This document shows positions 5,529-33,045 of a stretch of 33,045 nt of DNA, piece after piece. Origin of the DNA: Lachnospiraceae bacterium (GTDB lineage: Bacteria > Bacillota > Clostridia > Lachnospirales > Lachnospiraceae); the NCBI GenBank assembly GCA_022800815.1, contig JAAWRC010000037.1, positions 1 to 33,045 of the forward strand, written 5' to 3'. Under the pieces are notes generated by a model. That model was not told the DNA's origin. It ran no database searches and saw nothing but the letters and a program-made list of their open reading frames with translations. How positions within the stretch are numbered: the first letter of the stretch is position 1; each line of letters opens with the position of its first letter. A program made the translations under genes and the position numbers.

Positions 5529-7178
5529 ATGGAGGAAGCGAGGAGGGCGGTCATCGTGGTGGGACACAGGAATCCGGATACGGATTCCATCTGTTCGGCC
5601 ATCGCCTATGCGAGGCTGAAACAGTCCCGGTCGGGGAGGGAGCACAAGCCCTGCCGGGCGGGGGCGGTCAATCCGGAAACCCAGTACGTGCTGGATAAAT
5701 TTCACGTTCCTGCGCCGGAGCTCATCGAGGACGTCCGCACCCAGGTGAAGGACATTGAGATTCGAAAGACCAAGGGGGTTCGCTCCAGCATTTCTCTGAA
5801 AAAGGCGTGGACTCTCATGAAGGAGCTGGGGGTGGTGACTCTTCCCATCACCAGGGACAACCGGTTGGAGGGGCTGATCACCATCGGGGACATTGCAAAC
5901 TCCTACATGAACGTCTATGACAGCGCCATTTTGTCGGCGGCCCGCACCCAGTTCGTCAACATCAGGGAGACGCTGGAGGGGGCCGTGGTGGTCGGCGACG
6001 AGAGAAATTATTTTGACAGGGGGAAGGTTTTGGTGGCGGCGGCCAACCCGGACCTGATGGAGTCCTACATCGAGGAGCATGACCTGGTGATCCTGGGAAA
6101 CCGCTACGAGTCCCAGCTCTGCGCCATCGAGATGAATGCGGGATGTATCGTGGTCTGCGACGGCGCCCCCGTGTCCATGACCATTAAGAAGCTGGCGGAG
6201 GACCATGGGTGCACGGTGATCTCCACGCCCTTCGACACTTTCACGGCCTCCAGGCTGATCAACCAGAGCATGCCCATCGGGTACTTTATGACGACGAAGC
6301 AGATCATAAGCTTCGACCTGGAGGATTACACGGACGACATCAAGGACATCATGGCCAGCAAGAGACATCGGGATTTCCCGATCCTGGACCGGGACGGCCG
6401 TTATCAGGGGATGATTTCCAGGCGGAACCTGCTGGGCATGAAGCGCAAGGAGGTGATCCTGGTGGATCACAACGAGCGCTCCCAGGCGGTGTCCGGCATT
6501 GAGAGTGCGGAGATTCTGGAGATCATCGACCACCACCGGCTGGGAAGCCTGGAGACCATCGGGCCCGTGTTCTTCCGCAATCAGCCCCTGGGCTGCACGG
6601 GGACGATTGTCTGCCAGATGTACCGGGAGGCCGGGGTGGAGATCGGGCCGGAGGTGGCGGGGCTTCTCTGCAGCGCCATCGTCTCGGACACGCTCCTCTA
6701 CCGCTCCCCCACCTGCACCGGAGCGGACAGGGAGGCGGCGGAGGCGCTGGCGAAGATCGCTGGTATCGACACGAAGCAGCTTGCCAGGGAGATGTTCGCC
6801 GCCGGGAGCAACTTAAAAAAGAAGTCGGAGAAGGATATTTTTTATCAGGATTACAAGGTCTTCGACATCGACGGCACCACGGTGGGAATCTCACAGATCA
6901 GCTCCATGGACGTGACGGAATTCGTGGAGTTGAAGGAGCGGATGACGCCCTACATCGAGAAGATGAAGAACAAGCACAAGGTGGACATGCTGTTCTTCAT
7001 GCTGACGAGCATCCTGGACGAGTCCACGGAGGTGCTCTGCGACGGGACGGGCGGAGTCCAGCTTTTGGAGCAGGCTTTTCCCGGCTGTGCCGTTAGCGAG
7101 TTTTCCGTGACGCTGCCCGGCGTGGTGTCACGGAAGAAGCAGTTCGTGCCGGCGCTGGTGCTGGTGATGCAGGGGTGA
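5529..7178 (+). CDS. ppaC: Manganese-dependent inorganic pyrophosphatase with CBS and DRTGG domains
   Basis: The 549-residue protein is a family II (DHH) pyrophosphatase, which hydrolyses pyrophosphate from biosynthesis to phosphate. The catalytic part begins GHRNPDTDS (residues 12-20). An insert of about 240 residues follows, with two CBS halves (around TKGVRSSISLKKAWTLM and IKDIMASKRHRDFPILD) and a DRTGG-like part between them. Catalytic motifs resume with DHH at 334-336, SDT at 386-388 and the C-terminal substrate-binding SRKKQ at 534-538. In characterised CBS-pyrophosphatases the insert binds adenine nucleotides and dinucleotides that inhibit or activate the enzyme. I chose the ATG at 5529 behind AGGAGGAGGT; an upstream TTG at 5496 has no ribosome site. 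Confidence 0.92.
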   Translation: MEEARRAVIVVGHRNPDTDSICSAIAYARLKQSRSGREHKPCRAGAVNPETQYVLDKFHVPAPELIEDVRTQVKDIEIRKTKGVRSSISLKKAWTLMKELGVVTLPITRDNRLEGLITIGDIANSYMNVYDSAILSAARTQFVNIRETLEGAVVVGDERNYFDRGKVLVAAANPDLMESYIEEHDLVILGNRYESQLCAIEMNAGCIVVCDGAPVSMTIKKLAEDHGCTVISTPFDTFTASRLINQSMPIGYFMTTKQIISFDLEDYTDDIKDIMASKRHRDFPILDRDGRYQGMISRRNLLGMKRKEVILVDHNERSQAVSGIESAEILEIIDHHRLGSLETIGPVFFRNQPLGCTGTIVCQMYREAGVEIGPEVAGLLCSAIVSDTLLYRSPTCTGADREAAEALAKIAGIDTKQLAREMFAAGSNLKKKSEKDIFYQDYKVFDIDGTTVGISQISSMDVTEFVELKERMTPYIEKMKNKHKVDMLFFMLTSILDESTEVLCDGTGGVQLLEQAFPGCAVSEFSVTLPGVVSRKKQFVPALVLVMQG

Positions 7179-7269
7179 GCGGAACATCGTCAAAGTAATT
7201 GTTTAGCGAGACAGGGATTGAGGATGCCGGGCTGAGCCTGCGTCTGTGGTCGTGGAGATACACTTGGAA

Positions 7270-7447
7270 GGGGAAGAGCGGAACATCTCCATAAGCAGAC
7301 GATAGGAGGTTTGGTGGATTTTGCGAGCATAGCTGCGGGCAATTTTCGCCGCCCGGTTTGTTAGCGGTAAAATTGCCCGCAAACAGGCGGTGGAGCAAAA
7401 TCTGCCAAACCGAACGTGGTTGCGTTGGAGATGTTCCGCTCTTCCCC
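7270..7447 (+). repeat. E1: 178-bp long inverted repeat, candidate structured RNA
   Basis: Four nested paired segments are visible. P1 is a perfect 22-bp stem (7270-7291 with 7426-7447). P2 is 17 uninterrupted pairs counting two G-U (7308-7324 with 7395-7411). P3 is 12 pairs (7335-7346 with 7369-7380). P4 is CCGC/GCGG (7349-7352 with 7364-7367). The P1-P2 junction holds GCAGACGATAGG on the 5' side and GAACGTG on the 3' side. A homologous element, E2, lies at 32458-32707 on the other strand. E1 ends 8 nt before the ribosome site of the shikimate kinase gene, so it would form the 5' leader of that mRNA. It is not a terminator, since no T-run follows. Confidence 0.9.
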
Positions 7448-7471
7448 GTCGAAAGAGAAAGGATATTTGAT

Positions 7472-7984
7472 ATGAGGTATAACTGGAACAACATTACCCT
7501 GATCGGCATGCCTGCGGCCGGAAAGAGCACGGTGGGCGTGCTTCTGGCGAAACGGCTGGGCTATCGGTTCCTGGACTCGGACCTTCTGATTCAGGAGAAG
7601 GAGGAGCGCCTTTTGAAGGAGATCATTGCCGCCGAGGGCCTGGAGGGGTTCCTGGCCATCGAGGAACGGATCAACCGGGAGATTGATGCGAGACGGACGG
7701 TGATCGCACCGGGGGGTAGCGTGATCTACGGGCCGTCGGCCATAGAGCATTTCAGGGAGATCGGCACGGTCGTCTATCTGAAGATCAGCTATGAGGAGCT
7801 GGAGAAGCGTCTGGGAAACCTGGTGGACCGGGGCGTGGCCCTGAAGGACGGGATGAGCCTTCTGGATTTGTATGAGGAGCGGATCCCGCTCTATGAGAAA
7901 TATGCGGACGTCACCATCGAGGAGGCCGGAAAGTCCGGCGGACAGGTGGTCGACGAGCTTCGGATGCTGGTGGAGTGGGGATGA
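7472..7984 (+). CDS. aroK: Shikimate kinase
   Basis: The 170-residue P-loop kinase would phosphorylate shikimate at O3 with ATP in the chorismate pathway. Walker A is GMPAAGKST at residues 12-20. FLDSD (33-37) supplies the acidic residues that bind magnesium and shikimate. APGGSVIYG replaces the usual GGG substrate-binding turn with GGS, and RIPLYEKYAD resembles the R-x-x-x-Y segment after the lid in family members. The divergent turn means another small-molecule kinase is possible. I chose the ATG at 7472, 8 nt after AGAAAGGA; the frame is open further upstream but only through E1. No other aromatic-pathway gene is nearby. Confidence 0.78.
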   Translation: MRYNWNNITLIGMPAAGKSTVGVLLAKRLGYRFLDSDLLIQEKEERLLKEIIAAEGLEGFLAIEERINREIDARRTVIAPGGSVIYGPSAIEHFREIGTVVYLKISYEELEKRLGNLVDRGVALKDGMSLLDLYEERIPLYEKYADVTIEEAGKSGGQVVDELRMLVEWG

Positions 7985-31209: not shown

Positions 31210-32433
31210 ATGAAGTGGATAGACGGCGGCGTGACGGCGCCGAAGGGATTTTCGGCGGCGGGAGTGAGCGCCGGGATCAAAAAGGCCGGGATCAAGGACA
31301 TGGCCATGGTTTACAGTGAGGTGCCTTGTCGGGCAGCGGGGGTCTTTACCACAAACGTGGTAAAAGCGGCCCCGGTCAAATGGGATCACCAGGTAGTCCA
31401 TGAGAGTGCATTTGCCCAGGCGATGGTGGTCAACAGCGGCATCGCCAACGCCTGTACCGGGGCGGAGGGCTTCGGCCACTGCAGGGAGACCGCCGAAACG
31501 GCGGGGGGGGCCCTGGGGATCCCGGCGGATGCGGTGCTTGTGGCCTCCACCGGCGTGATCGGTGCAAAGCTCCCCATGGATAAGATAAAGGCGGGAGTCG
31601 GGATCTTAAAGGGGGCCCTGGGAGCCGACAGGAAGGCGGGAGCTCTGGCGGCAGAGGCCATTATGACGACGGACACAAAGCCCAAGGAGGCGGCCGTGGA
31701 GACGGTGATCGGCGGGAAGACGGTGACCGTGGCCGGAATGTGCAAGGGCTCCGGCATGATCCATCCCAACATGGCCACCATGCTCTGCTTCGTGGTGAGC
31801 GATGTCAGCATTTCCCATGGGCTTCTGCAGAAGGCTCTCAGCGACGACGTGGTGGATACCTTCAACATGATCTCCGTGGACGGGGACACCTCCACCAACG
31901 ACAGCGTCCTCCTGCTGGCCAACGGCCTGGCGGGCAATGCCGAGATCACGGAGGAGAATGAGGATTACCATGCCTTCTGTGAGGCGCTGCACGCAGTCAT
32001 GGAGGCGCTCTCCAAAAAGATCGCCGGGGACGGCGAGGGGGCCACCTGTCTCTTTGAGGTGAAGGTTCTCGGTGCGCCCACGAAGGAGGCGGCCAGGACG
32101 CTGGCGAAATCCGTGGTCACATCCAGCCTCACCAAGGCGGCCATTTACGGTCACGACGCCAACTGGGGAAGGATCCTCTGCGCCCTGGGCTATTCCGGCG
32201 TGTCCTTCGACCCGGAGCGGGTGGACATCTGGTTCGAGAGCGGGGCCGGGAAGCTTAAGATCGTGGAAAACGGCGTCTCCACCGGCTACAGCGAGGAGCA
32301 AGCCACGAAGATCCTCTCCGAGGAGGAAGTGACCGCCATCGCCGACATGAAGGCCGGAGAGGAAACCGCCACCGCCTGGGGCTGCGATCTCACCTACGAT
32401 TACGTGAAAATAAACGCCGACTACCGGTCCTGA
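31210..32433 (+). CDS. argJ: Glutamate N-acetyltransferase / ornithine acetyltransferase
   Basis: The 407-residue precursor self-cleaves between Ala and Thr in KGSGMIHPNMATML (nucleophile Thr near residue 189) to give alpha and beta chains. It moves the acetyl group from N-acetylornithine to glutamate, the cyclic arginine route, and may also use acetyl-CoA. Other family sequence is VFTTNVVKAAPVKWD, VNSGIANACTG and DANWGRILCALGYSG. ATG 31210 has AGGAGG 10 nt upstream, preferred over ATG 31192, which overlaps that site. argB and argD, which often follow, are absent; only repeats follow to the window edge. Confidence 0.95.
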   Translation: MKWIDGGVTAPKGFSAAGVSAGIKKAGIKDMAMVYSEVPCRAAGVFTTNVVKAAPVKWDHQVVHESAFAQAMVVNSGIANACTGAEGFGHCRETAETAGGALGIPADAVLVASTGVIGAKLPMDKIKAGVGILKGALGADRKAGALAAEAIMTTDTKPKEAAVETVIGGKTVTVAGMCKGSGMIHPNMATMLCFVVSDVSISHGLLQKALSDDVVDTFNMISVDGDTSTNDSVLLLANGLAGNAEITEENEDYHAFCEALHAVMEALSKKIAGDGEGATCLFEVKVLGAPTKEAARTLAKSVVTSSLTKAAIYGHDANWGRILCALGYSGVSFDPERVDIWFESGAGKLKIVENGVSTGYSEEQATKILSEEEVTAIADMKAGEETATAWGCDLTYDYVKINADYRS

Positions 32434-32457
32434 GATTCGGACTTTTGGTGAACTGAC

Positions 32458-32707
32458 GGAAGAAAAATGGTTCTTTTTACAGGATTGTCCAGGAAAGCCC
32501 CCGCCCGTGTTCCTCTTCAGACACGTTCGGTTTCAGGGATTTCACTGCGCCGCCCATGACAGGCAATTTCACCTCCATCAAACCGGGTCGGCTGAAATTG
32601 CCTGCGCTATACTCGTGAAATCCCCAAAACCTTCCTATCGTCTGCCGAGGAACACGGACGGGGGCTTTCTAAACAAGCTTCGGCTTAGAAAGAACCATTT
32701 TTCTTCC
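32458..32707 (-). repeat. E2: 250-bp long inverted repeat homologous to E1, opposite strand
   Basis: Outer stem P1b is 19 perfect pairs (32458-32476 with 32689-32707). Inner P1a is 22 positions with one mismatch (32494-32515 with 32647-32668). On the minus strand the junction reads GGCAGACGATAGGA (32646-32633) and CCGAACGTG (32530-32522). P2 is 17 pairs including two G-U, with its two arms in 32526-32545 and 32615-32631. P3 is 12 pairs (32560-32571 with 32593-32604). The terminal loop keeps CCCGGTTTG, as in E1. It begins 24 nt after the argJ stop. There is no T-run, so it is not a simple terminator. Confidence 0.9.
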
Positions 32708-32787
32708 TGTGTTGTACTGAGAGACGGAATCTCAGGGCCCGGCAGAGATTACCCAGGCAGGAGAGGGACCCGGGAGGCGTTTCGCCC

Positions 32788-33045
32788 GAGACTTGGGAGG
32801 AGGGAGGGTGTGGAGACTGTTTCCGTGAGCAAACGATAGGCATGTTTTAAGCCGTGTTTGCGAGACTTGGGAGGAGGGAGAGTGTGGAGACTGTTTCCGT
32901 GAGCAAACGATAGGCGTGTTTTAAGCCGTGTTTGCGAGACTTGGGAGGAGGGAGAGTGTGGAGACTGTTTCCGTGAGCAAACGATAGGCGAGTTTTGAGC
33001 CGTGTTTGCGAAACTTGGAGGGAGGGAGAGTGTGGAGACTGTTTC
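32788..33045 (+). repeat. 74-bp tandem repeat array, running off the window end
   Basis: Units begin at 32788, 32862, 32936 and 33010 (the last partial), with an exact period of 74 bp and only a few differences between copies. Each unit begins GAGACTTGGGAGG, holds GTGTGGAGACTGTTTCC, then a small hairpin: GCAAAC, GATA, GGC, a 9-nt loop, GCC, GT, GTTTGC. The motif GCAAACGATAGG (32829, 32903, 32977) matches GCAGACGATAGG of E1 and E2. There are no unique spacers, so it is not CRISPR. The full array length cannot be seen. Together with E2 it fills the 612 bp after argJ, where I see no gene. Confidence 0.92.

Follow-up and report, generated by a model that had tools for sequence, protein, structure and literature searches.

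Two places in a 33,045-nt stretch of DNA from a gut bacterium of the Lachnospiraceae (the window), here called E1 and E2, probably belong to a family of MITE-like foldback DNA elements in the Lachnospiraceae that are non-autonomous and whose arms are kept paired largely by arm copying. The element is dispersed and intergenic, and its presence varies between related species. It forms one long rod, in which conserved asymmetric loops lie between copy-specific arms, a base stem and the stems P2 and P3. A first-pass annotation of the window had described E1 and E2 as a candidate unrecognised structured RNA. The underlying observation is real, and stronger than the annotation stated: the stems covary, the loops are conserved and there is no Rfam match, although RNA is not clearly favoured over DNA. 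The fold is taken as real, and an RNA function as not established. The dispersal of the element, the larger nested repeats around E2 and the near-copies in a tandem array had escaped the annotation.

Fold and surroundings of E1 and E2

E1 occupies positions 7264-7453 of the forward strand. Its copy-specific outer arms (7264-7291 and 7426-7453) are an inverted repeat of 28 nt each with 93% complementarity, and the covariance model matches at 7273-7445 with 146.7 bits. Folded as RNA, the segment 7255-7460 reaches -114.6 kcal/mol (z -12.95, with none of 200 shuffles as low), and the opposite strand gives a z of -10.81. The motif-bounded core of 129 nt runs from GCAGACGATAGG to GGTTGC (7295-7423). 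Within it, P2 pairs 7308-7324 with 7395-7411 (17 pairs) and P3 pairs 7335-7346 with 7369-7380 (span 7335-7380), both read by eye and supported by the fold. The 5' patch between P2 and P3, GAGCATAGC (7325-7333), is among the most conserved stretches across genera. The apical loop above P3 contains CCCGGTTTG at 7352-7360, and the 3' junction of 14 nt (7381-7394, by eye) contains GGCGG and is also kept across genera. All of these features lie on the forward strand.

E2 lies on the reverse strand at about 32493-32669, with outer arms of 30 nt (32493-32522 and 32640-32669) that are 90% complementary, a covariance-model match at 32494-32667 (166.2 bits) and GCAGACGATAGG at 32634-32645. The overall fold is common to E1 and E2: the outer arms, the base stem P1, P2, P3 and a small stem at the apex are separated by unpaired patches that are conserved. 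That the two share fold and loops, as had been claimed, is borne out by folding, inverted repeats and motif counts. Chance is excluded, since GCAGACGATAGG has five matches in the window at no more than one mismatch against 0.10 expected, and the genome holds 29 near-complete copies. Inspection of the sequence by eye agrees with the annotation: P2 has 17 pairs in both copies, its positions 15 and 16 change from T-A to C-G and from G-C to A-T, its positions 6-9 alternate between Watson-Crick and G-U, and a G-C pair of P3 becomes A-T. The unpaired parts common to both copies are GCAGACGATAGG, GAGYATAGC, GGCGG, CCGAACGTG and CCCGGTTTG. The equal length attributed to the 3' junction holds for the 14 nt of E1; in E2 it is 13 or 14 nt, depending on a single pair. 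Outer stems that differ from copy to copy yet pair with themselves were likewise seen, outside subfamily B (described below).

E1 sits between a gene for a DHH/DRTGG/CBS/DHHA2 protein (5529-7178, forward strand) and one for a shikimate kinase family protein (7472-7984, forward strand), both assigned by Pfam, and the start codon of the latter lies about 20 nt past the arm. The sequence GAGCGGAACATC of the left arm (7279-7290) is repeated at the stop codon of the upstream gene (7177-7188), perhaps as a partial duplication. At another locus, L011, the element has a comparable repeat of its own left arm upstream. E2 is neighboured by ArgJ (31210-32433, forward strand; Pfam) and is enclosed by a larger nested inverted repeat (32426-32739), in which 32426-32479 pairs with 32686-32739 (54 nt, 74% complementary). 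Within this repeat the AGGAAGAAAA frame pattern occurs at 32457-32476 and 32689-32708. Further on, a 74-nt tandem array of 3.5 copies (32787-33045) continues to the end of the contig, which falls inside it. Every full unit of the array has a GCAAACGATAGG...GTTTGC hairpin (GCAAACGATAGG...CGTGTTTGC) that resembles the base module of the element, and the array holds three more near-copies of the GCAGACGATAGG motif.

Distribution, frames and occupied sites

Twenty-one full copies (alignment A1) were used to build a covariance model, R1, which gave 47 matches in the own genome; these were sorted manually into 29 near-complete copies, six partial copies and 12 antisense shadows. BLAST gave 27 matches there, one of which is E1's own antisense. 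Cores without insertions measure 126-130 nt. At L006, L017 and L022, another hairpin sequence is inserted within an E-family core; the inserts at L006 and L022 are alike and lie beside the GAGCAT patch. The notion that any long hairpin triggers the model was discarded, given that none of the 11 paired hairpins of a second family (see below) is among its own-genome matches.

By DNA search, seven of 61 genomes have a match, including the own genome, and all belong to its genus, of which 11 members were searched. The covariance-model search that the annotation had proposed reaches much further: 23 of 299 genomes of the family match at E<=1e-3, namely the own genome, 18 strong relatives (best E 1.8e-12 or lower, one genome per genus, all Lachnospiraceae) and four weak ones (best E 9e-6 to 1.6e-9). 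An order-wide sample under stricter filters contained no carrier among 195 genomes beyond the own one (1 of 196), which points to a patchy spread. Loci found by pattern have model support in 16 of 20 cases, in two uncultured Lachnospiraceae assemblies (one labelled Lachnotalea) and a Eubacteriales bin. Pattern matches outside the Lachnospiraceae (L038, L041, L044 and L053) have no model match and were dropped. The phage, plasmid and viral collections searched gave no match.

Copies from other genera mostly retain GCARACGATAGG, GCGAGCATAGCG, ATAGGCGGCGCAG and ACGTGTYTGC, with substituted stems and apical hairpin; the first motif deviates in some (e.g., L098, L101 and L113). In many of them (L088-L114) the apical hairpin reads CTGTYTGAGC...GCGAGTTT, flanked by GA steps that we take to be reminiscent of a kink-turn. 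The pattern TGTYTGAGC...GCGAGTTT has no exact match in the own genome.

Comparison with Rfam, likewise proposed by the annotation, yielded no match in the window at the gathering score of release 15. At E<=5, six loci gave six sub-threshold matches. The best of these, MIR918 (59.3 bits against a cut-off of 268, E 3e-8), was set aside on reading as a generic long hairpin. Searches of the open-licence PMC literature found no description of such an element. The element is thus undescribed as far as Rfam 15 and open-licence papers reach. A match to a known transposon family had been named as grounds for abandoning the RNA proposal; the family is indeed dispersed and transposon-like, but no named family matched.

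None of 34 places examined lies within a called gene (gene calls came from a custom script rather than a standard finder). Where both neighbours are available (31 places), they are codirectional in 26 cases, convergent in five and divergent in none; among spacers 60 nt or longer, 13.1% are divergent (p = 0.013), and with all gene pairs as the reference p is 0.09. The orientation of copies to genes (17:9) is not significant, and neither is that to replication in two complete genomes counted by hand (19:14 in G315, a one-contig genome with 33 matches, and 5:5 in G224), with the terminus taken as opposite dnaA.

Some copies are framed. Subfamily B has the ends CCACCTGTGCGGTT..., and exact 8-bp flanking repeats occur in three of seven of its elements (eight loci scanned): L126, L131 and L184, the last a core-less derivative. 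Two of these three repeats are A/T runs. Subfamily B has clear terminal inverted repeats, and so do framed copies such as L129, where an E core lies within a 312-bp frame with similar ends and without an exact repeat; no inverted-repeat frame was seen beyond the arms of E1 and several other copies. The frame sequence AGGAAGAAAACCGGTTCTTT has 48 matches at up to three mismatches, against none in the reversed control. Inverted pairs account for 34 of the 48: 11 pairs spaced 133-134 nt apart, four around E cores and two others (sorted manually). The 11 pairs belong to a second nested-hairpin family with other loops (GAAAGCCGTCGGTACTTAG...) and CTTGAGTTTCCG ends, represented by L212, L215, L222, L223, L228, L229, L233 and L235, which shares the AGGAAGAAAA frame with E-core elements. 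Exact 8-bp repeats flank four of the eight elements found (L212, L222, L233 and L235). Target duplications are inexact or absent in the remaining four of seven in subfamily B and four of eight in the second family. Overall, the cores look like interchangeable cargo of common frames. An autonomous partner with the same ends was not found within 4 kb in the scanned loci (the window and L115-L182). Two long pairs of middle frames were considered and rejected, as they enclose ordinary genes (open reading frames judged by eye).

The E1 spacer, between the DHH-family and shikimate kinase genes, contains no element in seven of ten congeners (G001, G002, G003, G005, G007, G008 and G009), where it measures about 9-110 nt. 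For this spacer, the seven congeners without the element argue for gain over loss. In the sister species G004, the spacer holds an E1 ortholog in the same orientation, with upper arms altered yet pairing and a different apical part, together with a second element. G006 has an element in the opposite orientation, and in G010 an element lies at the contig end.

Comparison of other G000 sites with the fetched portion of G004 shows elements in both genomes at L115, L116, L123, L133 (two), L135 and L136; at L115 and L135 the arms are strongly different and still pair. The element at L121 is core-deleted in G000 and full-length in G004, and that at L138 (7024) is truncated in G004. The orientation at L118 is reversed between the two genomes, as expected from the spacer inversion described in the accessible part of PMC8604942. 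G004 has no element at L125, L134, L138 (13337), L139 and L140, and a plain hairpin remains at L138 (13337) and L140. L124 and L129 are absent there too, but these sites are too diverged to read. Around L125, L133, L116 and L136, flank identity to G004 switches between about 80% and 99%, as if recently recombined.

Covariation and pairing chemistry

In A1, 92.9% of cells pair against 77.5% in shuffles, and 203 cells show changes on both sides against 73.5. Under a tree-preserving null (custom script), A1 has four significant pairs, all among its 54 structure pairs. A larger alignment, A3, comprises 95 distinct sequences of 98 matches at E<=1e-14 and, being fitted to the model, is biased toward the structure. 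The four weak genomes were excluded from it; as an exception, L105, from a weak genome, is among the alignment sources and has no match at that threshold. A3 has 36 significant column pairs, of which 30 are among its 51 structure pairs and the other six, read from the list, lie on the same outer-helix diagonal. The covariation described by the annotation holds against a null that preserves phylogeny.

Significant covariation of this kind may come from selection on an RNA or from copying between arms. G-U and A-C pairs were scored alike, and a position was counted only if flanked on both sides by two Watson-Crick pairs. The 95 copies yielded 2329 Watson-Crick, 57 G-U, 33 A-C and 84 other cells, summed over regions. 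G-U thus makes up about 2% of helix-internal pairs, a fraction that the neighbour filter also lowers and that has no control RNA to be set against. As a control, RNase P class B was ill suited, with 0 of 60 above its cut-off, and when 140 kb was scanned with Rfam for control RNAs, only three tRNAs came up. The excess of G-U over A-C is significant in raw counts (57:33, p = 0.015) but not when every column and genome contributes a single count (42:29, p = 0.15). In an earlier run with 70 copies, the ratio was 47:24, made up of 30:10 in P2 plus P3 and 17:14 in the outer arms.

Close copies give a similar picture. Across five sites shared by G000 and G004, 14 pairs changed on both sides and are still Watson-Crick, and six changes are one-sided (two G-U, three A-C, one other). 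Six copies of subfamily B, in 15 non-independent comparisons, show 41 paired against 27 one-sided changes (10 G-U, nine A-C, eight other), plus 10 double changes with a mismatch. These counts indicate close copies with few intermediates and without a wobble preference. The arms of four core-deleted copies (L121, L122, L131 at 5088, and L157 of G004) are still nearly perfect.

The pairing pattern is that expected from arm-to-arm copying, which the annotation had named as the main alternative to its own proposal and among the grounds for abandoning it. On the annotation's own terms, this pattern and the transposon-like nature of the family largely speak against the RNA proposal. Arm-to-arm homogenisation explains it best, and the pairing of the arms needs no structural selection. 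Such homogenisation, with spacer inversion, has been attributed to template switching (PMC8604942, accessible part), and in Escherichia coli quasipalindromes are perfected by the same route, according to the portion of PMC7202029 available. As presented in these excerpts, quasipalindrome correction resembles the present family in making repeat arms identical and inverting spacers, but it is a mutational process rather than a family of elements, and in the present case its substrate would be a mobile family. The loops are another matter: their conservation over some 18 further genera demands selection and probably reflects a recognised fold. Selection on RNA or single-stranded DNA structure, as the annotation had it, holds up in the case of the loops; the arms do not require it.

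Competing explanations and significance

The mobile foldback element is the favoured explanation on the strength of its 29 near-complete and six partial places, the empty sites, the 8-bp repeats, the reversal at L118, the few intermediates, the core-deleted copies and the conserved loops. The framed versions would depend for their movement on a transposase from the host or a helper element, arm complementarity would be maintained mainly by copying one arm onto the other through template switching in the hairpin, and the unpaired patches may be kept through a protein that recognises the folded hairpin, as a cruciform, single-stranded DNA or a transcript. Counting against this account are the lack of an autonomous partner in the scanned loci, the missing frames of E1 and several other copies and the inexact or absent target duplications; in addition, a plain MITE would not predict conservation of inner loops in place of ends, and raw G-U exceeds A-C, most of all in P2 plus P3 of the first run. 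Another reading is a class of structured RNAs, regulatory or acting in trans, that transposition has spread, with each copy transcribed together with its neighbour genes and binding protein or RNA through its loops. The raw G-U excess, the tree-corrected covariation in 30 of 51 structure pairs, the strand-specific loops conserved across genera and the lack of copies between divergent genes, which suggests a tendency toward transcribed spacers, would all fit. Such a class is nevertheless rather unlikely, as G-U is scarce and its excess disappears once relatedness is reduced, both orientations to genes occur, arms are still paired in core-deleted copies and intermediates between close copies are few. 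The distribution of copies among spacers would equally suit elaborate transcription terminators, gene-end hairpins extended by nested hairpins, as would the plain hairpin that the sister genome retains at two sites where G000 carries the element and the AGGAAGAAAA...TTTTCTTCC frame, which resembles a bidirectional terminator. This is improbable, given that E1 lies in a short spacer right before a start codon with no T-run past its arm, and that termination does not require loop conservation.

Integron attC sites combine conserved unpaired bases with variable stems. The element resembles such sites and might, like attC or REP/RAYT, be recognised by its fold as single-stranded DNA and mobilised by an HUH or tyrosine enzyme; REP families also bear an unpaired tag at one end (PMC3733652, part available). 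This is the least probable of the explanations weighed here: the GTAG/CGTC tag is not kept across genera, with GCAAAC often in place of GCAGAC, the core of about 130 nt far exceeds REPs of 20-40 bp, the two complete genomes show no replication-strand bias and the 8-bp duplications fit a DDE enzyme. As a tentative possibility, the copies may belong to a family-wide, fold-addressed class in which a dedicated protein reads the conserved internal loops of a strand-specific rod, in a transcript or in single-stranded DNA, and arms and cores can be exchanged freely; the loops would then be the address, and not the ends or stems. If so, this would amount either to a fold-addressed system of transposition or to an unrecognised RNA class of the Lachnospiraceae that transposition carries along.

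Among known systems, the bacterial MITEs (Correia/NEMIS, ERIC, RUP and YPAL/RU-2) have transcripts predicted as long stem-loops, as the consulted part of PMC2229807 reports. Like the MITEs in that account, the present elements are small, dispersed and intergenic, with inverted repeats and, in some, target duplications; unlike them, they conserve inner loops, have copy-specific arms and exchange cores between common frames. With REP/REPIN and RAYT they share dispersed palindromes and conserved unpaired bases. The available section of PMC3733652 defines REPs as palindromes of 20-40 bp that bear a conserved GTAG or CGTC tag at the end, whereas the present element is much longer and has no such tag conserved across genera. 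As in the structured RNA classes of Rfam, loops are conserved and stems covary, although the window has no match to any class of release 15 at the gathering score.

The family provides a natural many-copy record of arm homogenisation. It also carries a caution for RNA discovery, as arm homogenisation in mobile foldback DNA can yield strong tree-corrected covariation. The conserved loops appear to be the unexplained part, for which a binding partner would be needed. If the loops do bind something, a common gut family would harbour an undescribed structure-recognition system.
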